64,000 bases of DNA from Methylocystis sp. KS32 (lineage in GTDB: Bacteria > Pseudomonadota > Alphaproteobacteria > Rhizobiales > Beijerinckiaceae): NCBI GenBank assembly GCA_002862095.1, contig PHSQ01000002.1, forward strand, positions 744,001 to 808,000, written 5' to 3'. Below are positions 2,072 to 64,000 of this stretch, piece after piece. Position 1 is the first letter of the stretch. Every line of letters begins with the position of its first letter. The notes under the pieces are model-generated. The model ran no database searches. It was not told where the DNA came from and saw nothing but the letters and a program-made list of their open reading frames with translations. The position numbers and the translations under genes are program-made.

Positions 2072-2150
2072 TCGAGACGGTGGGGTCGAAACGCCGCCCA
2101 TGATCGAATTAACTGGCCTTTTCCCTACTATCGATCAGATTTAAATGATC

Positions 2151-2265
2151 TAGAGCAAAATCCGAAAAAGTTGATAGACTTTTTCGATTAGATTTAGCTC
2201 CAGCTTTTTGAATTTGGGCCGATTTCTTAATCTACGAGACGATTCCGTCCGGTCGGAAAGCGCTA
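2151..2265 (+). repeat. Interspersed ~116 bp two-hairpin repeat, copy 1
   Basis: tagagcaaaatccgaaaaagttgatagactttttcgatt...ggtcggaaagcgcta; near-identical copies at 16194, 22193, 28111, 37044(-) and 55559(-). Confidence 0.9.
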
Positions 2266-16193: not shown

Positions 16194-16310
16194 TAGAGCA
16201 AAATCCGAAAAACTTGATAGACTTTTTCGATTAGATTTTGCTCCATCTTTTTGAATCTGGGCCGATTTCTTATCGACCGGACGAACCCGTCTGGTCGATA
16301 AGCGCCCTAG
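16194..16310 (+). repeat. Interspersed ~116 bp two-hairpin repeat, copy 2
   Basis: Same family as 2151..2265. Confidence 0.9.
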
Positions 16311-16349
16311 CGACGCGCGGCCCGCCCCACGGCGAGCCGCGCGGAAAGC

Positions 16350-22128: not shown

Positions 22129-22192
22129 GGCATGTCTCCTCGGGAAATGGGGCGGGCGGGCGCCCCGCGCGACGCTCCCATCTGTTTCGTCC

Positions 22193-22308
22193 TAGAGCAA
22201 AATCCGAAAAAGTTGATAGACTTTTTCGATTGGATTTTGCTTCAGCTTTTTCAATCTTGAGCGATTTCTTAATCTACCAGACGATTCCGTCCGGTCGGAA
22301 AGCGCTAG
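22193..22308 (+). repeat. Interspersed ~116 bp two-hairpin repeat, copy 3
   Basis: Same family as 2151..2265. Confidence 0.9.
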
Positions 22309-28104: not shown

Positions 28105-28110
28105 GGCGCC

Positions 28111-28227
28111 TAGAGCAAAATCCGAAAAAGTTGATAGACTTTTTCGATTGGATTCTGCTCTAGCTTTTTGAATCTGGAGCGATTTCTTATCGACCAGACG
28201 ATTCCGTCCGGTCGGAAAGCGCTCTAG
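28111..28227 (+). repeat. Interspersed ~116 bp two-hairpin repeat, copy 4
   Basis: Same family as 2151..2265. Confidence 0.9.
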
Positions 28228-28449
28228 CCATCCCGACGGATTGCCGGAGCTTTTCGCGAAGCCCAGTAGATTTCCTAACACGAAATAGGCGGGGACGAAT
28301 AGAATAAAACGGCCTACCGCCACCGGAAAAAGCGCTCAGGCCCGAGGCGTCCAGATTCGGGCCCAACCGGCCCATTTGACACTCGCGGGGGCTTTCGCTC
28401 ATTAACCCTCAATCATTTGAGCCCCCTCATCGCACGCGGAACGCGAAAT

Positions 28450-36941: not shown

Positions 36942-37043
36942 TTGGAGCGCTTATCGTTCGAACGATAAGAAAGCTCTCAAAATCATAATGTTGGAGTGAA
37001 TTCCGATCGCAAAGGCCTACTGACTTTTGAGAAAATTCGTTCT
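36942..37043 (-). repeat. Strongly diverged tandem copy of the 116-bp repeat
   Basis: ggagcgct...gataagaaagctctcaaaatc...gttggagtgaattccgatcgcaaaggc...actttt aligns in layout with copy 5, immediately adjacent; contains perfect 20-bp palindrome cttatcgttcgaacgataag (36950-36969). Confidence 0.55.
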
Positions 37044-37159
37044 GGAGCGCCTTCCGACCGGACGGAATCGTCTGGTCGATAAGAAATCGCTCCAGATTCA
37101 AAAAGCTGGAGTAAAATCTAATCGAAAACGTCTATCAAATTTTTCGGATTTTCCTCTAG
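37044..37159 (-). repeat. Interspersed ~116 bp two-hairpin repeat, copy 5 (inverted)
   Basis: ggagcgccttccgaccggacggaatcgtctggtcgataagaaatcgctccagattcaaaaagctgg... Confidence 0.9.
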
Positions 37160-37163
37160 CGCG

Positions 37164-47551: not shown

Positions 47552-49015
47552 TCAATATGCGGTCTTGTCGTTAAACACGAGCGCAACGGTTTTGAAAATA
47601 ATTTTCGCGTCAAACCATAGACTCCATCGATCGATGTATTCGATATCGTAATCCACGCGTTTTTGTAGCTTCTCAACGCTGTCCAACTCGCCGCGCAGCC
47701 CGTGAACCTGAGCCCAGCCGGTCATTCCTGGCTTCACGCGATGCCGAACGGCGTAATAATCGACCAACTCCTCGAGATTTCTGCCTTCGGCCTTCGTGGC
47801 GAGCGCGTGTGGCCTTGGACCAATGAGCGACATGACGCCTTGAAGAACATTGATAAGCTGCGGCAGCTCATCAATACTCAAACGCCGGATGACGCGACCA
47901 ACACGCGTCACTCGCGGATCGTTTCGACTCGTTTGAGTTTCGGCATGATGATCCGTCATGTGAGTATACATCGAACGAAATTTCCATAGCTCAAAAGGCC
48001 GACCGTTGAACCCCGTACGAATTTGCCTGAAGAATACGGGCCCCGGACTCTCGATAAGAATCAAGGCGGCGACGATGAGGAACAATGGCGAAAGCAACAA
48101 CAACCCCGCGCCCGCCAAAACGACATCCTCGGCGCGCTTCAACCAAAGATTCCAACCATGGATAGATTCCTCGATCGCGCAAAACGACGGCCGCCCTGCG
48201 AATTCCGTAACCTTGCGAATCATTGCGCCAAGCGAACGCGTGCTGGGGAGAACATAGACTCGCGTCGACAAGTGACTGAGAAGGTCCAACTTAGCCAATA
48301 TTAGCGGGATATCGACCCAGGGCGCGGCGAGATAGATCTGGTCTATTTCCGATTGAGCGACCACATCGGCCAGCGATGCGACATCGCCGATATTGGCAAA
48401 CTTCATGCTGTCAATCACGCGAACATGCCGCTCCGAATGACGCTCTATCTCTCTTGGCGAGATCGGATCGCAAAAAACGCCAACGGAAAGCGCGCGGTTC
48501 ACGAATGCGCCTTGCTCGAGCGCGCGCTCAGTTGCGGCGAAGACCATCCGACGTATTAAAAGAATCAGCGGGAAGCTCAGGACGACCCATGAAAAAAACC
48601 ACAACCTCGAATAGGTTTCCGCAGTTTTTGTAGCGACGGCGACGACCACCATGAAGGCGAATGTGAAGAATATTGCAAGCGGAAGTCGTCGGAACGCCCG
48701 CCTGCTATCGAGAATGCTGCTTGTGCGGTACACGCCCAGCAACCGAGCCCATAGGAGGTGCGAGAATACAGCAAAGCCGACGGCTTGAGCCTGCCAGTCT
48801 TCGATATAGGCGTCGGACGATCGAAACTCTCGTTGCAACAGGACAGCTAACACCCCTGAGCATGCATAAAGCAGCAAATCAAGGGCCACCAGCCCAACGA
48901 CGCAATTTTGCAAGCAAATGCGCCCCCTGGCGTTATCGGGAATGCGGCCTACGCCGCTTTCACCTGACGCGACCGAGCCCGATTGGAATTCTTGGATCGG
49001 CGATTGAAACATCAA
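47552..49015 (-). CDS. Undecaprenyl-phosphate glycosyl-1-phosphate transferase (WcaJ/ExoY-like)
   Basis: N-terminal TM/CoA-binding-like domain; SPGPVFFRQIRTGFNGRPFELWKFRSMYTH, RVGRVIRRLSIDELPQLINVLQGVMSLIGPRPHA, YAVRHRVKPGMTGWAQVHGLRG. Confidence 0.95.
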   Translation of the reverse strand: MMFQSPIQEFQSGSVASGESGVGRIPDNARGRICLQNCVVGLVALDLLLYACSGVLAVLLQREFRSSDAYIEDWQAQAVGFAVFSHLLWARLLGVYRTSSILDSRRAFRRLPLAIFFTFAFMVVVAVATKTAETYSRLWFFSWVVLSFPLILLIRRMVFAATERALEQGAFVNRALSVGVFCDPISPREIERHSERHVRVIDSMKFANIGDVASLADVVAQSEIDQIYLAAPWVDIPLILAKLDLLSHLSTRVYVLPSTRSLGAMIRKVTEFAGRPSFCAIEESIHGWNLWLKRAEDVVLAGAGLLLLSPLFLIVAALILIESPGPVFFRQIRTGFNGRPFELWKFRSMYTHMTDHHAETQTSRNDPRVTRVGRVIRRLSIDELPQLINVLQGVMSLIGPRPHALATKAEGRNLEELVDYYAVRHRVKPGMTGWAQVHGLRGELDSVEKLQKRVDYDIEYIDRWSLWFDAKIIFKTVALVFNDKTAY

Positions 49016-50790: not shown

Positions 50791-52296
50791 ATGCCCCAAT
50801 TCGAACCTTCCGGAGTCGTCGGCGCGCCAAAGGGGAAAGACGCCCCATCATCTTCGGCGAGCGCGGGCGGCGGCGCGCAACAGCGACCCGGCGGTTTAGC
50901 GGCGAAATATGCCGCAGCCATCGATGGGGGCGTATTTTTCGCCTTCATCGCTCTGTTGGCCTGGGCTCCGCTATGGTTCGGCTCCAATCGGCCTCTGGCT
51001 TGGGGCGTCAACGCGATCGGCTTCGGCGGCCTCGCTGTTTGCTATGAACTCGCCTTGCTCGCGACGCGGCGCCGCCATCCCGTAGCGCTTCGGCGACTCT
51101 GGTTTCCTGTCCTGGCTTTCGCCTTTGTCTTCGTCTGGTCGCTGTTTCAAATCAGCCCGATGATCCCCAAAGGCTATCAACATCTGATCTGGCAAATGGC
51201 CGGAGAGGCTCTCGCGCGCGAGCTACCGGGCTCCATAAGCGTCGATCACGACGACACCATCGTTTCTCTTTTGCGCTTTGCGACCTGTGGGTTCGCCTTC
51301 TATCTAGCCTTGCAATTGGGCCGCTCGTCGAGAAGAGCGCGACGATTGACGCAGGCTGTGGCGGTGATCGGCGCTTTCTACGCCACCTATGGGATCATAG
51401 CCTTTTTTGTGTTCCCCCGCAGCATTCTCTGGTTCGATAAGCTCTATTATCTCGATTCGGTGACTTCGACTTTCATCAACCGCAATTCCTACGCCACTTA
51501 CGCGGGAATAGGCCTCGTCTGCTCATTGACGATTGTTTTGCATCTCTATCTCGGCGGCGCGGCGCTCGCCGGCGGCGCGGTTGGGCGCAAAATCGCCTCG
51601 CTCGTCTCGATCACCGTCGGCCAGGGCGGCGCGTGGATCGCTTGCGCTTTCATCATCGGCGTCGCCCTCGTTCTTACCGGATCGCGCGGCGGCGTCCTAG
51701 CGAGCGTGAGCGGCCTGTTCGCACTCCTGATTCTATCCGGCGTACGCGGGCGCAGGCATGCCGTCGCGACCGGCTTTGGCTCGCTCGCGATTGGCCTGGC
51801 GATCGGCGGCGCCTTTTTCAATTACGGGGATTTTCTCGCCGACCGTCTCGCCACCCAAGGGCTTGCCTCCGACGACCGCCTCGCCGTCTACGGTCTGACC
51901 TGGAACTCGATCGGCGACGCGCCGCTGCTTGGGTTTGGCGACGGAACATTTGAAAAGGTCTTCCCGCTCTATCGCGACAAGACCATCGATATGGCCGGCC
52001 TATGGGATAAGGCGCATAACTCTTATCTCGAGGCGTTGCAGGGCCTCGGCGTTCCTGTCGCCTCGATCCTCCTTATCGCGATCGCGGTCTTGTTCGGGCG
52101 TTGCGTCCATGCAGCTTTGACGCGACGCAACTCCACGCTTGCGCCGCTCGCGGCGAGCGCGGCCACGGTGATTGTCTCTTTGCACGCGCTGGTTGATTTT
52201 AGTTTGCAAATCGAGGCGGTGGCCCTGACCTGGGCGGCGCTGCTAGGCGCGGGAACGGCGCAATCCTGGCGTAGCAAAGTGGCGACCGATCGCTAG
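50791..52296 (+). CDS. O-antigen ligase/polymerase-like membrane protein (Wzy/WaaL family)
   Basis: About 11 TM; STFINRNSYATYAGIGLVCSL, LTGSRGGVLASVSGL, KAHNSYLEALQGLGV. Confidence 0.87.
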   Translation: MPQFEPSGVVGAPKGKDAPSSSASAGGGAQQRPGGLAAKYAAAIDGGVFFAFIALLAWAPLWFGSNRPLAWGVNAIGFGGLAVCYELALLATRRRHPVALRRLWFPVLAFAFVFVWSLFQISPMIPKGYQHLIWQMAGEALARELPGSISVDHDDTIVSLLRFATCGFAFYLALQLGRSSRRARRLTQAVAVIGAFYATYGIIAFFVFPRSILWFDKLYYLDSVTSTFINRNSYATYAGIGLVCSLTIVLHLYLGGAALAGGAVGRKIASLVSITVGQGGAWIACAFIIGVALVLTGSRGGVLASVSGLFALLILSGVRGRRHAVATGFGSLAIGLAIGGAFFNYGDFLADRLATQGLASDDRLAVYGLTWNSIGDAPLLGFGDGTFEKVFPLYRDKTIDMAGLWDKAHNSYLEALQGLGVPVASILLIAIAVLFGRCVHAALTRRNSTLAPLAASAATVIVSLHALVDFSLQIEAVALTWAALLGAGTAQSWRSKVATDR

Positions 52297-52539: not shown

Positions 52540-54774
52540 ATGCATGGCAATATTCCTTTTAAAATGACGCAAGCGGCTGAAGGACAGGATAATTCGGACG
52601 CCATTGACTTGCGTCGGCTGCAAGATTTCTTTCACCGGCGCTGGAAGCTGATTCTCGCGACCGCCGTCGCAGTGATGGTCTTGGCCTTTCTCGTCATCCT
52701 GACCATCGCCCCGCGTTACACCGCCACGGCTCAAGTTCTGCTCGAACCGCGCAAAGAGAAGATTTTCGGCGCCGACAGCATTCTCCCCGAACTCAATCTC
52801 GAAACCGGCAACGTCGACAGCCAGCTAACGGTCATTCAGTCGATCAATCTATTGCGTCGCGTCGTCGAAAAAGAAAAGCTCACCCAGGACACGGAATTCG
52901 GCCAATCCTCGCAGGCCGGTCTGTTTAGTTTTATCGCCGGCTTATTTAAATCCGAGGACGCGGCCGACACCAAGGCTGCCGCCAAAGCCGACAGCGCTAT
53001 TCCCGGCGATGTGTTGCGCTCGATCAACAAATTACGGGCAGCTCTCGAAGTCACCCGCGTCAACCGCACTTACGTCCTCTCCATCGGCGTCACCTCCGAG
53101 GATCCCGCAAAAGCGGCGCGCCTCGCCAATGCGGTGGCCGACGCCTATGTCGTCGACCAATTGGACGCGCGCTACGACGCCGCCAAGCGCGCCTCGGTCT
53201 GGCTGGCGGAACGCATGGAAGGCCTGAGGGAACAACTGCGCCAGTCGGACGAAGCGGTGGCGCAATTCCGCAAGGAGCATAATCTCCAAAACACCGGCCT
53301 CGGCGTTGGCGACAACAAGGTCACCATTTCCGAGCAGCAGCTCTCCGAATTGAACGGCAAGTTGATTACCGCTCGCGCCGACACCGCGGAAAAGCGCGCC
53401 AAATATGAGCAGGCGGTACAAGTAACCTCGCACGGCGGCAATCTGCAGGCTATTCCCGACGTGGTCCATTCGACTGTGATTTCCGAGTTGCGCAAGCAAC
53501 AGGCGGAAGTGGCGCGCAAGGAGGCCGATCTCATCGCCCATTATGGCGATCAGCATCCGCTGCTGATCAACGCCCGCGCTGAGCGCCGCGACATCGACCG
53601 CTCCATCGCGGAGGAAGTGAAACGCATTCTGGTCAATCTCAAGAACGATTACGACGTCGCCAAGTCGCGCGAGACGTCGCTGCAGACCAGCCTCGAACAG
53701 ATCACCGGCCAGACCGGCCAGGACAATGGCGTCGCCGTGCGCCTGCGCGCACTCGAACGTATCAACGCCGCCAACAAGACTCTGTTCGACAATTTCATGT
53801 CGCGCACCAAGATCACTCAGGAACAATCGACTTTCGAGGAGCGCGAAGCGCGGGTGATCTCGCCGGCGGTGAAGCCTAACGCCCCCTCTTTCCCCAAGAA
53901 GGGTCTCGTCGAAGCCTTGGCGGGCGTGGTTGGTCTCATGCTTGGCGTCGGCGGCGCGGCGGCGCTCGACATGCTCAACTCCGGCTTCCAGACCGCACGC
54001 GAGCTTGAAGACAAGCTCGGCCTGCCGGTGTTAGGCTCGGTTCCGCTGCTTAGCGACAAAGACAGCAAGGTCGACGGCAAGACTCTCGACCCTGCTCAAT
54101 ATCTTTTCGCAAAACCGCTGTCGCGCTACGCCGAGGTGGTGCGGGCGATCCGCGTCGGCATCCAGATGGCCGACGTCGACAACCCCGCCAAAGTGATTCT
54201 CGTCACCTCTTCCATACCGAGCGAAGGCAAGTCCACCTTAGCGCAAAGCCTCGCCTTCTCAGCCAGCAAGGCCGGCCAGCGGGTGCTCATCATCGACGGC
54301 GACCTTCGCCATCCTTCCACGAGCAAATATTTTGGGCTGGAGAACAACGCTGGGTTGGTCGATTTCTTGACCGCCGCGGTCGCTCTCGACGCCGCGGCGT
54401 CGAACCAGTTCGGCGTCACCGTTCTCCCCGCCGGAATGAAGTCGCAGAATCCGCCCGATCTCTTGGGCTCCGAGCGCATGAAGCATTTGATCGAAAAGCT
54501 TCGCGATTTATTCGACTACATCATCATCGACTCTCCGCCATTGGAACCGGTGATCGACGCCAAGGTCTTGGCTGCGCTCGCCGACACGGTCGTATTCGCC
54601 GTGCGCTGGCAGACCACCAAACGTGAAACCGCCGCACAAAACGCCGATTATTTCGCCCGCACTCAAAAGCTGGCCGGCATCGCGATGACCATGGTCGATG
54701 AAAGCAAGACGCCGCGTTACGGCGCATATGGCAATTACAACGGCTATTATTATCACAAATATTATTCCAATTAG
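52540..54774 (+). CDS. Polysaccharide co-polymerase / tyrosine autokinase (Wzc/BY-kinase)
   Basis: Wzz domain with coiled coil; Walker A SSIPSEGKST, Walker A' LIIDGDLRHPS, IIIDSPP; Tyr-rich tail RYGAYGNYNGYYYHKYYSN. Confidence 0.93.
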   Translation: MHGNIPFKMTQAAEGQDNSDAIDLRRLQDFFHRRWKLILATAVAVMVLAFLVILTIAPRYTATAQVLLEPRKEKIFGADSILPELNLETGNVDSQLTVIQSINLLRRVVEKEKLTQDTEFGQSSQAGLFSFIAGLFKSEDAADTKAAAKADSAIPGDVLRSINKLRAALEVTRVNRTYVLSIGVTSEDPAKAARLANAVADAYVVDQLDARYDAAKRASVWLAERMEGLREQLRQSDEAVAQFRKEHNLQNTGLGVGDNKVTISEQQLSELNGKLITARADTAEKRAKYEQAVQVTSHGGNLQAIPDVVHSTVISELRKQQAEVARKEADLIAHYGDQHPLLINARAERRDIDRSIAEEVKRILVNLKNDYDVAKSRETSLQTSLEQITGQTGQDNGVAVRLRALERINAANKTLFDNFMSRTKITQEQSTFEEREARVISPAVKPNAPSFPKKGLVEALAGVVGLMLGVGGAAALDMLNSGFQTARELEDKLGLPVLGSVPLLSDKDSKVDGKTLDPAQYLFAKPLSRYAEVVRAIRVGIQMADVDNPAKVILVTSSIPSEGKSTLAQSLAFSASKAGQRVLIIDGDLRHPSTSKYFGLENNAGLVDFLTAAVALDAAASNQFGVTVLPAGMKSQNPPDLLGSERMKHLIEKLRDLFDYIIIDSPPLEPVIDAKVLAALADTVVFAVRWQTTKRETAAQNADYFARTQKLAGIAMTMVDESKTPRYGAYGNYNGYYYHKYYSN

Positions 54775-55467: not shown

Positions 55468-55558
55468 GCTGGCGTTGTTGCAAGCAAGTCGCGCTTGACC
55501 ACGGTCGCGTTGGCGAGATAGTTGTGTCGACATTGAATTCGGCGCTGACGCTCAACGC

Positions 55559-55675
55559 TAGAGCGCTTTCCGACCAGACGGAATCGTCTGGTCGATAAGA
55601 AATCGCTCCAGATTCAAAAAGCTGGAGCAAAATCTAATCGAAAAAGTCTATCAACTTTTTCGGATTTTGCTCTAG
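55559..55675 (-). repeat. Interspersed ~116 bp two-hairpin repeat, copy 6 (inverted)
   Basis: tagagcgctttccgaccagacggaatcgtctggtcgataagaaatcgctcc...cggattttgctctag. Confidence 0.92.
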
Positions 55676-55704
55676 TGCATCGACGCTGTTAAGGGCGAGT
55701 GATA

Positions 55705-56265
55705 ATGGCGAGCATGACCGCTGATCTGGGAGCAATGGACGGCGCTGAAAGGCGCCTTCTCGCGCCCGGCCAACGTTGGTACTTGGCTCATACCCTGCCG
55801 CACAAAGAGACCACCGCCGAGATGCGGCTCGCGGACCAAGGCTTTCATGTCTTTCTTCCGCGTCGCCTCAAGACCGTGCGCCACGCTCGCCGGATGCGCA
55901 CGGTCAATGCGCCGCTGTTTCCACGTTACCTGTTTGTCGCTTTCGACATCGATCGCGCGCAATGGCGCAGCATCAATGGCACCATTGGCGTAGCGACCCT
56001 GTTCATGGCGCGAGAGCGGCCCCTCGCGGTCCCGGACGGCGTGGTCGAGACGCTGATCCAGTCGTCCGATCGGGGCGGGTGTCTGCGTTTCGACTCCGAG
56101 CTGACGCCCGGACAACAGGTACGTCTGATCGCCGGGCCTTTCACCGAGACGCTCGGCGTGCTCGATCATCTCGACGCGCGCGGGCGCGTCGAGGTTCTGC
56201 TCAACATCATGGGCAGCGTTACTCGCGTAAGGCTGCACAGGGAGTTGCTCGAACCGGCGGCGTGA
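55705..56265 (+). CDS. NusG-family transcription antiterminator (RfaH/UpxY-like)
   Basis: RWYLAHTLPHKETTAEMRLADQGFHVFLPRRLKT...PLFPRYLFVAFD; KOW-like GQQVRLIAGPFTETLGVLDHLD. Confidence 0.88.
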   Translation: MASMTADLGAMDGAERRLLAPGQRWYLAHTLPHKETTAEMRLADQGFHVFLPRRLKTVRHARRMRTVNAPLFPRYLFVAFDIDRAQWRSINGTIGVATLFMARERPLAVPDGVVETLIQSSDRGGCLRFDSELTPGQQVRLIAGPFTETLGVLDHLDARGRVEVLLNIMGSVTRVRLHRELLEPAA

Positions 56266-56568: not shown

Positions 56569-57966
56569 ATGGAGTTGTTCCTGATGACTTCACAGCAGTT
56601 TGAGAAAGATCAAATTACCGCGTTCCGCCACCCCCCGACCGAGACAGGATTCGCAATCAATCGTTGGTTTCAACGCGCACCCAGTAAATCCGGTTCCAAT
56701 CCGTCACAAAAAATTTTGATTCAGGCGATAAATTATGCTCCTGAACTGATCGGCTGCGCCAAATACACCACCGAGCTGGCGCAATATCTAAGCCAAAACG
56801 GCCATCTCGTCGAAGTGGTCGCGGCCCCACCGCATTATCCGGGCTGGTATGTGCGCAAGCCCTATCGCGGCTTCGCCTATAGCAGCGAACTTCTCGATGG
56901 CGTCAGAGTCACGCGCTGTCCGATGGCGATGAAAGCCGACGGCGGCGGGCTATGGCGGATGCTGGCGCCGCTAAGCTTCGCCTTCGCCGCCGCGCCGGCG
57001 CTGTTATGGCGCGCATTGCGCTTCCGTCCCGACGTCGTGATGTGCGTCGAGCCGACCTTATTCGCGGCGCCGATCGCTCTACTCGCCGCCAAAATTCTTG
57101 GCGCGCGCGCGCTGTTGCATGTGCAGGATCTCGAGATCGACGCTGCTTTCGGCGTGGGCCATCTCAAGGGCGCGGCATTGAAACGCGCGGCTTTTTTATG
57201 CGAACGCCTGTTGCTCTCGCGGTTCGACGATATCGTCACGATCTCGAACAAAATGCGCGCGGCTTTGGTCGCCAAGAGCCTTGATCCCTCTAAAATCAGG
57301 CTGCTGCGCAATTGGGTCGATACCGAGCAAATCGCGCCCACGCCAAGAACCGGCAACGGTTTTCGCGCCGAGCTCGGCATAAGCGACGACGCCTTTGTTG
57401 TGCTCTATGCCGGCCATATTGGCGTCAAGCAAGCGCTCGACGTCGTGATAGCCTCCGCAAGGCGGCTTAAGCATCGCAGCGACATTGTTTTCGTGATCGC
57501 CGGCGCCGGCCCCAGCAGAAGCGGCTTGGTCGCAGCATCCGCCGATTTGCCCAATGTCCGGCATTTGCCGTTGCAGCCGGCCGAGCGGCTCAATGAACTG
57601 CTGGCGCTGGCCGATCTCCATGTCTTGCCGCAACACCGCGGCGCGGCCGATCTGGTGTTGCCATCGAAGTTGAGCGGCATGTTGGCGAGCGGGCGCCCAA
57701 TAGTCGCCACCGCCGATCCCGGCAGCGAACTCTACGACATATTGACCGAGGTGGCGCTGTTGACGCCTGCGGGCGACGCCGCGGCGCTGGCCGAGGCCAT
57801 TGTCGCCGCGACCTCGCTCGACTGGTCGCGGCGCATCGAGGCCGGCCTGCGTTTGGCCGCTAGCATGGGGTCGGATCGCCTGCTGCCGCATTTCGCCGCT
57901 CTCCTGCTCGCTCCCCACGATTGGGCCGAGTCGGCGGCGGTCGCCGAGGCCCCGGAGGCGGGTTGA
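56569..57966 (+). CDS. Glycosyltransferase family 4 (WcaI-like)
   Basis: INYAPELIGCAKYTTELAQYLSQNGHLVEVVAAPPHYPGW; C-terminal GT4 domain. Confidence 0.92.
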   Translation: MELFLMTSQQFEKDQITAFRHPPTETGFAINRWFQRAPSKSGSNPSQKILIQAINYAPELIGCAKYTTELAQYLSQNGHLVEVVAAPPHYPGWYVRKPYRGFAYSSELLDGVRVTRCPMAMKADGGGLWRMLAPLSFAFAAAPALLWRALRFRPDVVMCVEPTLFAAPIALLAAKILGARALLHVQDLEIDAAFGVGHLKGAALKRAAFLCERLLLSRFDDIVTISNKMRAALVAKSLDPSKIRLLRNWVDTEQIAPTPRTGNGFRAELGISDDAFVVLYAGHIGVKQALDVVIASARRLKHRSDIVFVIAGAGPSRSGLVAASADLPNVRHLPLQPAERLNELLALADLHVLPQHRGAADLVLPSKLSGMLASGRPIVATADPGSELYDILTEVALLTPAGDAAALAEAIVAATSLDWSRRIEAGLRLAASMGSDRLLPHFAALLLAPHDWAESAAVAEAPEAG

Positions 57967-58129
57967 GCGCGCCGCTTCGCCTTGCTCAGGCCGCTGGCGG
58001 AGCCGCCCAAATCGCGCCCAATAGGGCGTCATGCACGCCCTCCCCTATGCGCGCCACGACGCCTCTCCCACTCTGTCGAGCGAATTGTGATAAGAGTAAT
58101 TATCGCATTGCGGACGAGCGATTGGCGCT

Positions 58130-58346
58130 TTTGCCTCACAAGCTTGGGCCAGCGGGAAAAACGTCATTGCGAGCGCGAGCCGAAGCAATCCAGGGGACAA
58201 CGTCGGTCCCTTCTGCCTTTTCATGCTCCCAAGACAGCTCCAAACGATCCTTCCTCCGCGCTATGCCCGCCTGGATTGCTTCGTCACTTCGTTCCTCGCA
58301 ATGACGGACCCGCCGCCGAACTCGTTTGTGACGCAGCAGAATTAGG
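58130..58346. mobile_element. Second copy of MITE/REP-like element (inverted relative to 27290..27453)
   Basis: cgtcattgcgagcgcgagccgaagcaatccag...tggattgcttcgtcacttcgttcctcgcaatgacgg...gtgacgcagcagaattag. Confidence 0.65.
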
Positions 58347-58385
58347 GGTTGTCGCGCGCTGGAACTTCTTAAGCAAAGAGCAACT

Positions 58386-59855
58386 TTGATGTACCGTTCC
58401 ATTTTAGGTTTTTATCAAAACTTTGGCGCATCCGCCGGAGCAAGCATGCCGCCTGTCGGAGTCCTGCTTCAAAAATTTAAAAGTAATCAACTGACGAGAA
58501 ACGCACTGTTCTCGCTTGGACAAAGCGTCTTCGTGAGCGTATGTCTGTTTCTCATCTACAGGAAGCTTATAACGGAAGTCGGCGCGGAGCGTTTCGGAGT
58601 CTGGTCTCTTTTGATGGCGGCCTCGACCGTGGCTCGAGTGGGCGATTTTAGCGGTGGAAATTCGCTGTCGCGCTTCGTTGCCCTTGCCGAACGCGAGGAG
58701 CGCGGCGACCCGCCCCGCGATCTCGTCCACACCGTCACCCTGACGAGCCTGGCTCTCAATATCTTAATCGGGGCCTTGCTTTGGGGCGCGACTCTGTTCC
58801 TGTTGCCGTCGTTCATCGACACAAGCCATCTTGCGGAAGCGCGGTCGCTCCTGCCGTGGATGTTCCTGCAGATCGTGATTGGTTCTCTCGCCGGCGCGGT
58901 GACGTCGGCCATTGACGGCGCGCAGCGCGCGGATCAGCGGTCCAAGGTCGTTATGGCGGCCGCGGTCTGCTCTCTCGCTGCCACTTGGCTATTGGCGCCT
59001 TTCTATGGCGTTCGCGGCTTCGCTGCCGCGCAGGTCATGCAGCAACTAGCGATAGTGATGCTTGGATGGCTGGTGCTGCGCCAGCATATCCCTGGGCTTG
59101 GGTGGGTTCCCCACCGGTGGAGCCGCATTGTTTTTGTCGAGACTACCGGATATTCATTGCGGCTAAATGCGAATGGACTGGCGATCATGCTGTTCGAACC
59201 GGTCGTCAAGTTCGCGATCAATCACGCTGGCGGATTGAGCGACGTCGCACTTTATGAATTATCGTCCCGCTTGATATCGCAAATTCGAGCGCTCGTCGTT
59301 TCGGCCGCTACACCCCTCGTGCCCGCGCTGGCTGCTCAATTATACGATGGCGATGGCGCATTTGGCCGTCTGGTCGAAAAAGCCACGCGCATAGCGAGCC
59401 TCGGAGCAATAGGCGTCGCTGTTGGTTCGCTGATCGCGGCGGCGCCCGTCAGCTTTATCGTGCTTGGGAAAGTCTCGCCCTCTTTTTTGCAAATGAGCGC
59501 GCTTCTGTCCCTTGGTTGGAGCTTGCAAACTCCTTCCCTCGGATTCTACTTCGCGGGCCAAGCCGCAGGGGTTATCCGCTGGAATTTTTTCAGCCATGTT
59601 TTTCTGGCTGCCACCGTTCTCACAGGCGCTCTGTTCATTGCGCCGCTTTACGGAAGCATTAGCCTGATCTTCTGCATTTGTTTTGGCCTTGTTGGAGCAA
59701 CCATCGTGATCGTCGCGGGAAATAGTAGCGCGTTGCGTCTCGGCGGAACCGCGCGGAGATTGCGCTCCTGGTTCGTTCTTGCTTCGGGATCGGTCGTGTT
59801 TATCTGTTTCGTCTTCATCCTAATTGTTGACCGGTTATCTTGGGCTCTTGCATAA
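58386..59855 (+). CDS. Oligosaccharide flippase (Wzx-like)
   Basis: 12+ TM segments, polysaccharide-biosynthesis membrane protein pattern, locus context. Confidence 0.83.
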   Translation: MMYRSILGFYQNFGASAGASMPPVGVLLQKFKSNQLTRNALFSLGQSVFVSVCLFLIYRKLITEVGAERFGVWSLLMAASTVARVGDFSGGNSLSRFVALAEREERGDPPRDLVHTVTLTSLALNILIGALLWGATLFLLPSFIDTSHLAEARSLLPWMFLQIVIGSLAGAVTSAIDGAQRADQRSKVVMAAAVCSLAATWLLAPFYGVRGFAAAQVMQQLAIVMLGWLVLRQHIPGLGWVPHRWSRIVFVETTGYSLRLNANGLAIMLFEPVVKFAINHAGGLSDVALYELSSRLISQIRALVVSAATPLVPALAAQLYDGDGAFGRLVEKATRIASLGAIGVAVGSLIAAAPVSFIVLGKVSPSFLQMSALLSLGWSLQTPSLGFYFAGQAAGVIRWNFFSHVFLAATVLTGALFIAPLYGSISLIFCICFGLVGATIVIVAGNSSALRLGGTARRLRSWFVLASGSVVFICFVFILIVDRLSWALA

Positions 59856-59857
59856 TA

Positions 59858-60290
59858 ATGTCCGTCAATTCCCTCCTTTCTTTGACGGATGGTTTCCCAC
59901 GCGGCAGGTGGAAGCTCATCTCTTTTGCCCTCAGAGCATGGCGCTGCGGCTTTCCTCGGCGGGGAAATTCGAGCCGCTGCGTGCGGCGGCGCTGGCCGGT
60001 CTTGGGGACATATCCCGCCATCGGGCGATTTTTCGGCCCTCTCGGCACGGCCGGCCCGCTCCTTGTCATGGCGGGAGCAAATTTGATGATGAACGCGCGG
60101 AGCATGTTCGGCATCGCGGCGGTGGCGGCTCTCTACAGCCTGTTGAAATCGGCGCTCGATCTCCGCCCGGCGACAAAGCGGCGCCTGAGTTCCGGCGCGC
60201 TGGGGGTGGAGACCAAGGAAAAATACGAGTGGCAGGCCTCCGGCGACTGGGGCCTATGGCTTTGACTCATTGGTTGGGCTATATAAAATC
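59858..60290 (+). pseudogene. Eroded duplicate of the O-antigen ligase/polymerase-like gene at 61091..62344
   Basis: Nearly identical DNA (cttggggacatatcccgccatcgggcgatttttcggccctctcgg...) interrupted by at least three internal deletions relative to 61091..62344; reading frame shifted upstream and truncated downstream. Confidence 0.85.
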
Positions 60291-60319
60291 AGGCGCTTAA
60301 TGCAAATGGAGTAGTCATA

Positions 60320-61078
60320 ATGACGCGATTTGAGATAGTTGATATGTTTAAGCTGAGCATAAAATCAATTATACGTAAGATCGGCCTGGAAATTACAAGG
60401 TCGAAGCATGGAGAGAGCGCGCATTCTCTTACATTGCGCTTGGCTGAACTCACAAAGTCAACGATGTTTCTCGATGTCGGAGCCAATGAGGGTCAATTCG
60501 CATCGAGCGTGTCCGCCGATATCGGCGGCGCGAGAATCGTTTCCTTCGAACCCAGCGAGAGCGCCTACGCGCTTCTCAAGACACACGCGTCGCGGCGTCG
60601 CAATTGGGTCGTCGCGAAACGCGTGGCGCTCAGCGATCAACCGGGCGAGGCGATTCTTCATGTTTCAGGCAATTCCGTTTCCTCGTCTTTGCTGGAGATG
60701 GAGGCGGCGCATTCCGATGCGGCCCCTCAATCAAGATATATCGCGACCGAAACGGTGCCTTGTGCGACGCTCGACAGCATAGTCTACGAGGACATGGCCT
60801 TGCATGGCGAGAAGTTTTATTTAAAAATTGATACACAAGGTTCAGAACTAAAAGTGCTATTGGGAGCGAGCAAAACACTGAATGACGTTGTCGCAATTCA
60901 GTGTGAAGTTTCGTTTGTAGAGCTCTACAAGGGACAGCCGCTCGCAAATGAAGTAATCAGATATTTGAAAGAAAGAGGTTTTTTACTTTTCGGATATGCG
61001 AATGTATTTCGTGATCCTAAGCGCCACGAACTGCTTCAGGCTGATGTTTTTTTCTTGCGCGACGGCGCGGCGTCTTAA
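60320..61078 (+). CDS. FkbM family methyltransferase (copy 1)
   Basis: MFLDVGANEGQFA SAM-binding motif, IVSFEPSESAYALLK, YLKIDTQGSELKVLLGA. Confidence 0.88.
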   Translation: MTRFEIVDMFKLSIKSIIRKIGLEITRSKHGESAHSLTLRLAELTKSTMFLDVGANEGQFASSVSADIGGARIVSFEPSESAYALLKTHASRRRNWVVAKRVALSDQPGEAILHVSGNSVSSSLLEMEAAHSDAAPQSRYIATETVPCATLDSIVYEDMALHGEKFYLKIDTQGSELKVLLGASKTLNDVVAIQCEVSFVELYKGQPLANEVIRYLKERGFLLFGYANVFRDPKRHELLQADVFFLRDGAAS

Positions 61079-61090
61079 ATTCGCCGACGC

Positions 61091-62344
61091 ATGTCAATCG
61101 ACTCCCTCCTGTCTTTCCTGCTCGGCGCGCTAACCGTCGCTCAAATCAAATTTGGCGGCGTGCTGCTTGGTTCCGACCTTTTCGCGCTTTGCGTCGTCCC
61201 GCTCTATTTGCTGAAGGCGAAGAGACGGCGCATGTTGGGCGAAGACCGTTATCTGCTCTACGGGATCGGTCTTTGGTTCCTCGGCGCGGTGGCGACAGAC
61301 ATCTACCGCGCGACGCCGGTTGAGGATTTCACGCGCGGCTGGGCCAAGCTGGTCTTTTTTACCCTCACGATCATGGCGCTGCGGCTTCTCTCGGCGGGAA
61401 AATTCGAGCCGCTGCGCGCGGCGGCGCTGGGCGGCGTGCTTGGGGGGCTGCTGCAGGACGCTTTTTTCCCCAACGAATATCAAGCCGGTGGGCTGCTCGA
61501 CCCGACTTCCTGGAAATTCGGTCTTGGTCCTCTGCTCACAATCTTCGCGGCGGCCTTGGGGACATATCCCGCCATCGGGCGATTTTTCGGCCCTCTCGGC
61601 ACGGCCGGCCCGCTCCTTGTCATGGCGGGAGCAAATTTGATGATGAACGCGCGGAGCATGTTCGGCATCGCGGCGGTGGCGGCTCTCTACAGCCTGTTGA
61701 AATCGGCGCTCGATCTCCACCCGGCGACAAAGCGGCGCCTGAGTCCAGGTGTTTTCGCGATGCTTGGGGTGTTGGGCCTGGCGGGCGCCCAGGGACTTAT
61801 GGCGCTCTATGGCTTCGCCGCGGGTTCCGGCGCGCTGGGGGTGGAGGCCAAGGAAAAATACGAGTGGCAGACCTCCGGCGATTTGAGCCTGCTGCAATCG
61901 GGGCGGGTAGAATCCCTGGTTTCGCTCCAGGCCATCGCCGATTCTCCCGTCCTTGGTCATGGTTCCTGGGCGCGCGACATGCACTATGTGATGCTGCTGG
62001 TCGATCGCTTGGACGCCGCCGGCATGAAGATGGAGGGTGATCCCTTCGCAAGCGATCTTATCCCCTCGCATTCCCATCTTTTCGGCGCCTGGGTCGAAGC
62101 GGGCCTCTTGGGCGGAGTGTTCTGGATCGGGGTCCTGATCGCAGGCGTCATGGCGCTCTATCGCGTGCTCAAGATCAACGATCCGCCGATTTCATTGGTC
62201 GCCCTTTTGCTGTTCGACCTGCTATGGACCATATTGTTTTCGCCCTTCGGGCTGGATCAGCGCTTTTGGACGAGCTTGAAAATATCTATCGTTCTGTGGG
62301 TTTTGCGCCCGCGAGAGCGCAAGGACGAAAAGGGACGGACATAA
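61091..62344 (+). CDS. O-antigen ligase/polymerase-like membrane protein
   Basis: About 10 TM; ANLMMNARSMFGIAAVAALYSLL, IPSHSHLFGAWVEAGLLGGVFWIGV. Confidence 0.8.
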   Translation: MSIDSLLSFLLGALTVAQIKFGGVLLGSDLFALCVVPLYLLKAKRRRMLGEDRYLLYGIGLWFLGAVATDIYRATPVEDFTRGWAKLVFFTLTIMALRLLSAGKFEPLRAAALGGVLGGLLQDAFFPNEYQAGGLLDPTSWKFGLGPLLTIFAAALGTYPAIGRFFGPLGTAGPLLVMAGANLMMNARSMFGIAAVAALYSLLKSALDLHPATKRRLSPGVFAMLGVLGLAGAQGLMALYGFAAGSGALGVEAKEKYEWQTSGDLSLLQSGRVESLVSLQAIADSPVLGHGSWARDMHYVMLLVDRLDAAGMKMEGDPFASDLIPSHSHLFGAWVEAGLLGGVFWIGVLIAGVMALYRVLKINDPPISLVALLLFDLLWTILFSPFGLDQRFWTSLKISIVLWVLRPRERKDEKGRT

Positions 62345-62345
62345 A

Positions 62346-63152
62346 ATGAAATTCTCGATCGTCACCATCTCCTTCAATCAGGCCGAATTTCTCGAGCGCA
62401 CGATCCGCTCGGTGCTCGATCAGCAGGGCGTCGAAATCGAATATATCGTCGTCGATCCCGGCTCGACCGACGGCAGTCGCGAAATCATCGAGCGCTATCG
62501 CGATCGCATCGCGCACATAATTTTTGAAAAGGACCAAGGGCCGGCCGACGGCTTGAACAGGGGCTTCGCCAAAGCAAGCGGAGAGATTTATGGTTATTTG
62601 AATTCCGACGACACATTCGAGCCAAACGCATTAAAGACGGTCGAAAATTATTTCATCGATCATCCCGATGTTGATGTCGTGTGCGGACATTGCTGGGTGA
62701 CCGACCGCCACGATAACCGCTTGCGCAAGGGCTGGTCGGAGCCGTTCACACGCCTCTCCGCCGCTTATGGCGCCAGCGTGCAAATGCAGCCCTCGACCTT
62801 CATTCGTCGACAAGCCTTTTTGAACTCGGGAGGATTTAACATTGAAAACCGCCGTTCTTGGGACGGGGAATTACTCCTGAGTTTGTTTCTATCGGGTGCG
62901 CGGATCGAGATCATGGACGCTATTCTCAGCACCTTTCGCTTGCACGAGGTGAGTATTACAAATAGCGGCGCCTTAGGCGATTTGCTTGAGATTTCATCGC
63001 GCGAAAGTTTCGAACGGCTCATGGGACGCAAACGGCGCTTTTTCGATAAGCCTATCGCCTTTGTGTTGCGCGTCTGGAAGCATCTTCGCAGGCCTCGCGC
63101 ATTGGCGGAGCGCCTTATTAAGGGCCCCATCTATTTGCGAGGCGTCCGATGA
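62346..63152 (+). CDS. Glycosyltransferase family 2
   Basis: KFSIVTISFNQAEFLERTIRSVLDQQ...YIVVDPGSTDGSREII, YGYLNSDDTFEPNAL. Confidence 0.93.
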   Translation: MKFSIVTISFNQAEFLERTIRSVLDQQGVEIEYIVVDPGSTDGSREIIERYRDRIAHIIFEKDQGPADGLNRGFAKASGEIYGYLNSDDTFEPNALKTVENYFIDHPDVDVVCGHCWVTDRHDNRLRKGWSEPFTRLSAAYGASVQMQPSTFIRRQAFLNSGGFNIENRRSWDGELLLSLFLSGARIEIMDAILSTFRLHEVSITNSGALGDLLEISSRESFERLMGRKRRFFDKPIAFVLRVWKHLRRPRALAERLIKGPIYLRGVR

Positions 63153-63165
63153 TGTCCAGAGTATT

Positions 63166-63366
63166 ATGATTCCGCTAGATTCAGCCAAATCCAAGCCCCT
63201 CGAGGGCGGACCCAGCTTCAGCCTGGGCAGCCGGGTCTATTGGACGGCCGACGACAGGGTAATGGATATTCCCCTGCGCATCACGCGCAGCCGCAGGCCC
63301 CGCGTAGCAACGGAAGCCCGCCACGGGACAATCGTCAGATTTTATTCATCAGGATGGGCTTCATGA
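63166..63366 (+). pseudogene. Possible 5' remnant of a WcaF-like acetyltransferase gene
   Basis: MIPLDSAKSKPLEGGPSFSLGSRVYW resembles WcaF-type N-termini; remainder (TADDRVMDIPLRITRSRR...) does not form the hexapeptide-repeat fold. Confidence 0.35.
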
Positions 63367-64000
63367 ATTTCTCGCGTCTAATTCTGCGCCTGCGCAAGCT
63401 CCTTGCCGCTACGACAACGCCGCTGTTCGCCCGTGCGCTGCGTCACGGCGTGGCGGCTAGCATGGAACATGGGGAGGCGTTGGCCCGGTTCGACTTCGAC
63501 TTTGTTGTGGACGTCGGGGCCAACAAGGGACAGTTTGCCCTCTTCATAAGAAACCGGTTTCCCCAGGCTCGCATTGTCAGTTTCGAACCTCTCGAACGCC
63601 CTGCCTCGATCCTCAAGTCCGTGTTTCGGGGGGATGCCGCGCTGCGCATCGTGCAGGCGGCAATAGGGCCTCTCAGAGAGCGGCGTTTTATGAATGTAAC
63701 GGAGAAGGATGATTCGTCTTCTTTTCTGGATATAAGCCAAATCCAAGCGGACGTATTCGGAACCCGCACGATTGAAAAGCATGAAGTCTCCTGCGGGCCT
63801 CTATCTGATTTTCTCAAAATCGAAGACCTTGGCGCTCGCAATCTTTTGAAAATCGACACCCAAGGCTATGAATTAGAGGTATTAAAGGGATCGGAAGAAA
63901 TTCTCGATTGCTTTGAAGCCGTTTATTGTGAACTTTCCTATGTCGAACTATACAAGAGCCAGCCCCTAGCGAGCGAGGTGATATGCTATTTGCTGGATAG
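63363..64000 (+). CDS. FkbM family methyltransferase (copy 2, truncated by window end)
   Basis: Manual translation: FDFVVDVGANKGQFALFIRNRFPQARIVSFEPLERPASILK...LLKIDTQGYELEVLKGSEEILDCFEAVYCELSYVELYKSQPLASEVICYLLD; no stop before 64000. Confidence 0.85.
   Translation, partial: MNFSRLILRLRKLLAATTTPLFARALRHGVAASMEHGEALARFDFDFVVDVGANKGQFALFIRNRFPQARIVSFEPLERPASILKSVFRGDAALRIVQAAIGPLRERRFMNVTEKDDSSSFLDISQIQADVFGTRTIEKHEVSCGPLSDFLKIEDLGARNLLKIDTQGYELEVLKGSEEILDCFEAVYCELSYVELYKSQPLASEVICYLLD

Follow-up and report, generated by a model that had tools for sequence, protein, structure and literature searches.

Why should a gene cluster for a surface polysaccharide carry one polymerase-like gene twice, first as a collapsed fragment and then intact, with a methyltransferase gene in between? 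The locus lies near the end of the window, by which we mean the whole 64,000-nt stretch analysed here (positions 744001-808000 of a 917,805-nt contig from a 3.36-Mb alphaproteobacterial genome). Matches to Pfam and TIGR profiles identify this end as a surface-polysaccharide cluster. It contains a WcaJ-family priming transferase (47552-49015, minus strand), an O-antigen-ligase-family protein matching Wzy_C (50791-52296), a Wzc-like co-polymerase (52540-54774), a NusG-like regulator (55699-56265), and a WcaI-family glycosyltransferase (56569-57966). There follow, all on the plus strand, a wzx-like flippase gene matching Polysacc_synt_3 (58386-59855; PF13440, E = 2.8e-8), whose stop codon stands 2 nt ahead of the ATG of the collapsed wzy copy, hereafter the relic (59858-60246); an FkbM-family methyltransferase gene, FkbM1 (60320-61078; PF05050, E = 4.4e-23, and TIGR01444), correctly recognized in a first-pass annotation as separating the two copies; the intact wzy-like gene of the polymerase/ligase superfamily (61091-62344); a family 2 glycosyltransferase gene, GT2 (62346-63152; PF00535 and tblastn); the 5′ stump of a WcaF-like hexapeptide acyltransferase gene (codons 1-30, 63166-63246; tblastn E = 4e-6); and a second FkbM gene, FkbM2 (63366-63998, continuing beyond the window to 64142; PF05050), 42% identical to FkbM1 by BLASTP. 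FkbM1 has a G+C content of 49.5%, against 60.8% for wzy. The 419-nt gap between the WcaI-family glycosyltransferase gene and wzx (57967-58385) holds inverted GAAGCAATCCAGG / CCTGGATTGCTTC motifs resembling a dispersed intergenic repeat. A ~120-nt interspersed repeat with palindromic sequence inside occurs six times in the window (2150-2264, 16194-16312, 22192-22306, 28110-28228, 37042-37162, and 55549-55680), in both orientations and at 92-97% identity to the 55549 copy. No structured RNA was found between 56 and 64 kb in the window.

The first-pass annotation had regarded the upstream copy as a collapsed version of the downstream one, its blocks retained in order and several internal stretches deleted. 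Pairwise alignment bears this out: the relic is a collapsed partial copy of 61091-61881, the start of the 417-codon wzy-like gene. The resemblance greatly exceeds what chance would give: its three main blocks match the intact gene with BLASTN E values of 9e-100, 6e-27, and 4e-24, and its first 76 nt alone reach a score of 47, while the best of 1000 shuffles reached 35. The retained blocks are 59858-59883 (matching 61091-61116 at 81% identity), 59888-59933 (61322-61367, 74%), 59934-59994 (61369-61429, 92%), 60001-60188 (61555-61742, 187 of 188 nt or 99.5%), and 60189-60246 (61824-61881, 56 of 58 nt). Missing from between them are 61117-61321 (a net loss of 201 nt), the single nucleotide 61368, 61430-61554 (net 119 nt), and 61743-61823 (81 nt); the 119-nt loss falls at a 7-bp repeat, CTTGGGG, and the 81-nt loss at a 2-bp repeat, GT. 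The boundaries first proposed for these gaps hold to within a few nucleotides, except that the end of the first, placed at 61332, measures about 61321, while the longest block, given as ~190 bp, is 188 nt long. What survives of wzy is thus codons 1-9, 78-113, 155-217, and 245-264; past ~61881, or about codon 264 of 417, the relic has no wzy sequence and hence no 3′ end.

The two copies differ, too, in what they retain of the family's conserved residues. In an alignment of eight homologues, all 35 invariant residues are present in the intact 417-aa frame, and only five of the 35 lie in the retained segments of the relic, which also lacks the His-Ser-His motif (327-329) and the 3′ third of the gene. 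The upstream copy is a remnant, truncated and stripped of essential conserved residues, and with so few invariant positions left it should be inactive. The downstream gene is probably the polymerase of the cluster, judging from its position, its invariant residues, and a weak full-length Wzy_C match. It shares the cluster with wzx, GT2, the priming transferase, and the co-polymerase. Its match to Wzy_C (PF04932; E = 0.0025) spans profile positions 3-149 of 149 at 18.1 bits, below the Pfam gathering score (31.7), so the score does not place it in the family. Profile comparison with the Wzy_C protein encoded at 50791-52296 was uninformative and lent no support, and a search of the PDB for relatives matched only unrelated small membrane subunits. 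Given the sub-threshold score and the unsupportive comparison, "polymerase-like" here denotes position plus a weak match; in that sense the original designation stands, aided by a homologue on an Azospirillum plasmid annotated as "O-antigen ligase family protein".

Identity is uneven across the retained blocks. Changepoint analysis was applied to the match/mismatch series of an indel-aware alignment, its ragged end trimmed, with 20,000 permutations. The best single split falls after 59964, with 17 mismatches at 100 sites upstream and 4 at 276 downstream; none of the 20,000 permutations was as extreme (p < 5e-5), and a second changepoint is unsupported in either half (p = 0.77 and 0.47). The relic therefore comprises a low-identity part (59858-59964, ~83% identical to intact wzy) and a high-identity part (59965-60246), and the earlier description of its blocks as almost identical applies to the latter alone. 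The block 59934-59994 taken by itself also differs from the 3′ part (5/61 against 3/246 mismatches, p = 0.009, or p = 0.03 with an adjacent double change scored once), a weaker contrast than the full one. The 188-nt block, with its one mismatch, is conspicuous to the eye, yet its difference from the adjoining block on the right (2/58) is not significant (p = 0.14), and there is no need to invoke a conversion tract confined to the 188 nt; gene conversion of that extent was dropped as the leading model, since a single breakpoint suffices. At the sole difference within the 188-nt block it is the intact gene that has changed, the homologues and the relic both having arginine. Among the differing sites, the homologues side with the intact copy at 12-14 and with the relic at 5-9, and the relic departs from them at constrained positions. 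Shared sequence begins exactly at the ATG, and no homology is found upstream of either start codon: wzx precedes the relic, FkbM1 precedes the intact copy, and neither flank is duplicated. At the other end the homology stops at about codon 264, and the AT-rich flank of FkbM1 follows from ~60246.

The relic is probably the scar of an exchange of DNA within this surface-sugar gene cluster. As to the kind of exchange, we give about an even chance to one-sided, homology-facilitated recombination that would have introduced FkbM1 and left the relic as the remainder of the resident wzy. The gene order at the outset would have been wzx-wzy-GT2. Incoming DNA with FkbM1 and, downstream of it, a diverged allele of wzy would have aligned with the resident wzy and undergone a homologous crossover near codon 103 (range ~93 to 155, allowing for the gap between blocks), and its other end would have been joined without homology near codon 264 of the resident gene, a sequence of steps known as homology-facilitated illegitimate recombination. 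The product would be a resident wzy lacking its 3′ end, followed by FkbM1, an intact hybrid wzy (donor 5′ part and resident 3′ part), and GT2. Released from selection, the truncated copy may then have shed pieces through small deletions, one of them across the CTTGGGG repeat, while the hybrid retained the function. Under this scheme the 5′ parts would be allelic and the 3′ parts copies of one sequence, which yields the diverged 5′ and near-identical 3′ regions observed. The one homologous anchor that such recombination leaves is present as the single changepoint (p < 5e-5).

Several further observations speak for one-sided recombination. The deviating composition of FkbM1 is congruent with incoming DNA, and the conserved residues are intact in the downstream copy and mostly gone from the relic. 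Independent points come from FkbM2, which sits in a broken wcaF, and from rearranged wzy-GT2 loci in relatives, both described below. On the other side of the ledger, the low-identity part is short (100 comparable sites) and microindels complicate its alignment, and a single breakpoint would equally result if the 3′ part had been converted later. Moreover, since the homologues mostly side with the intact gene, the 5′ divergence owes something to decay and is not wholly allelic, and intact wzy shows no clear change in composition at the putative crossover. Neither a donor nor a pre-event strain was found among genomes of the genus, family, order, and class, so direction and order were not observed; we infer them, together with the roles of donor and recipient and the one-sided character of the event, from the sequence, as distinct from the relic itself, which is plain in the alignment.

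The main rival is a tandem duplication of wzy after which FkbM1 inserted between the copies and the upstream one decayed, its 3′ part (about 59965-60246) being converted later by the intact neighbor. We consider this possible, at a clearly lower probability than one-sided recombination. The copies are indeed in tandem and in the same orientation, gene conversion between close repeats is common in bacteria, and a tract reaching the truncated end would likewise leave one breakpoint. However, three or four separate events are required, and homology that starts exactly at the ATG between unduplicated flanks is not predicted unless the ends of the duplication fell there by chance. More doubtful still is the history originally envisaged for the locus, in which wzy was duplicated in tandem once and recently, and the upstream copy then underwent nothing but internal deletions. 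The 188-nt block, at 99.5% identity, speaks for it, and the deletions are real, but changepoint analysis rejects uniform divergence, and a 5′ end at 83% identity is not recent. The two identity classes with one breakpoint, and homology starting at the ATG, leave a simple recent duplication unsupported; the same two features, shared sequence from the ATG only and one sharp changepoint, favor one-sided recombination over plain tandem duplication.

Could the relic nevertheless encode something? Its net indels total multiples of three, and consequently a 135-codon frame remains open from the original ATG to 60265 (59858-60265, plus strand). One might imagine a small membrane protein that arose from wzy and has a function of its own, such as a regulator or decoy of polymerization, and an open frame starting just past the wzx stop codon would suit it. 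The chance of such an open frame is about 1/27 if every frame outcome is random, which is too modest a figure for any argument to be built on it. Against a small protein, the frame is shifted over 59934-59994, 30 of the 35 invariant residues are gone, the frame has no Pfam match, and no conserved counterpart was found. A product of this kind is therefore very improbable; the frame probably lacks protein function, and the relic would be non-functional as a wzy gene. It cautions against annotating a gene at 59840-60265. Similarly far-fetched is an assembly chimera or collapsed repeat, for although no close relative was found for comparison, collapsing or joining identical repeats does not produce two diverged copies that differ by several distinct indels and point changes, and the locus lies deep inside the 0.92-Mb contig, which rules out a contig-end artefact.

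Comparison with relatives shows that the cluster is accessory, as wzx and wzy are absent from all 38 other genomes of the genus. No wzy homologue above 41% identity was found in 39 genus, 397 family, 398 order, and 385 class genomes, no FkbM1 homologue above 43% in the family genomes, and no close relative in scans of genome contigs with the wzy and FkbM1 proteins; at high identity, wzx and wzy occur in no other searched species. Structural variation of the putative polymer between strains is plausible. The sole family member with a syntenic cluster, G174, belongs to a different genus; its polymerase is 41% identical, and its GT2 is 70% identical by tblastn. GT2 comes after wzy in nearly all homologous loci, and the wzy-GT2 pair is usually intact in distant ones, that on the Azospirillum plasmid included. 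In the G174 cluster an intact wcaF follows GT2 (L035:12068-12637). In the present cluster, FkbM2 (63366-64142) lies inside the broken WcaF-like gene, of which residues 148-183 reappear in two frames at 64178-64284 (tblastn E = 5e-4), just beyond the window (L026:4178-4284). Around FkbM1 and FkbM2, a search for insertion-element ends and shared flanks returned only short, chance-level matches.

Two distant relatives carry further scars at the homologous locus, each seen in a single draft genome in which an assembly error is possible. In G977, a perfect 238-nt copy of the start of the neighboring wzy lies in frame within an FkbM gene (L041:11029-11266) that has lost its N-terminal part (only profile positions 100-172 match), and GT2 is missing. 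In G1159, wzy is cut after residue 359 (L056:4425-5501), the next cluster gene stands directly behind the cut, and GT2 is again missing; G1156 (L055), of the same genus, has both wzy and GT2 intact. Together with FkbM2 in the broken wcaF, these scars strengthen the first-pass suggestion of modular rearrangement. It is conceivable, if improbable, that short ectopic copying beside FkbM genes recurs at the wzy-GT2 junction of this polymerase family, the relic next to FkbM1, FkbM2 in wcaF, the 238-nt copy in G977, and the truncated wzy of G1159 being the cases behind such a reading. If true, FkbM cassettes may share a mobility mechanism that leaves templated scars of the neighboring gene.

Remnants of wzy have precedents. 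In the O-antigen clusters of Salmonella enterica groups B1 and D1, wzy remnants resulted from serial deletion once the role had passed to another wzy; group D3 has a partial duplication of wzy (PMC3715488). Common to groups B1 and D1 and the present cluster is a non-functional wzy remnant with another wzy supplying the function, in our case as predicted. In Salmonella, however, the function comes from a distinct wzy gene located far from the remnant, and insertion sequences lie nearby (PMC3715488), whereas here an intact wzy of the same family lies 0.8 kb downstream of the relic's end, an FkbM gene stands between, and a single breakpoint separates low from high identity. Homology-facilitated illegitimate recombination has been proposed for gene-displacement scars in the type VI secretion system (T6SS) immunity gene arrays of Vibrio cholerae, and one-sided recombination is known experimentally, though it is rare (PMC5361080). 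In both settings, a homologous anchor combined with a non-homologous join would strand a fragment of the old gene beside the acquired genes; the gene system differs, and the process here is deduced from genomic data alone. The capsule locus of Neisseria meningitidis has a truncated duplicated galE2 (PMC5349592), likewise a shortened polysaccharide-gene remnant alongside its intact counterpart, and that cluster was acquired horizontally. The two Neisseria copies belong to the repetitive regions, D and D′, that surround the island; here no repeat of greater length was found.

The relic is accordingly a further wzy remnant of a documented sort, distinguished by a nearby intact gene of the same family and a readable breakpoint. 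The decay is genuine, but little about it is unusual for a surface-polysaccharide locus, and since wzy remnants and partial wzy duplications are well documented, its wider importance is modest. Such scars record the swapping of parts among surface-polysaccharide clusters, and one clear breakpoint makes the event readable from a single genome.
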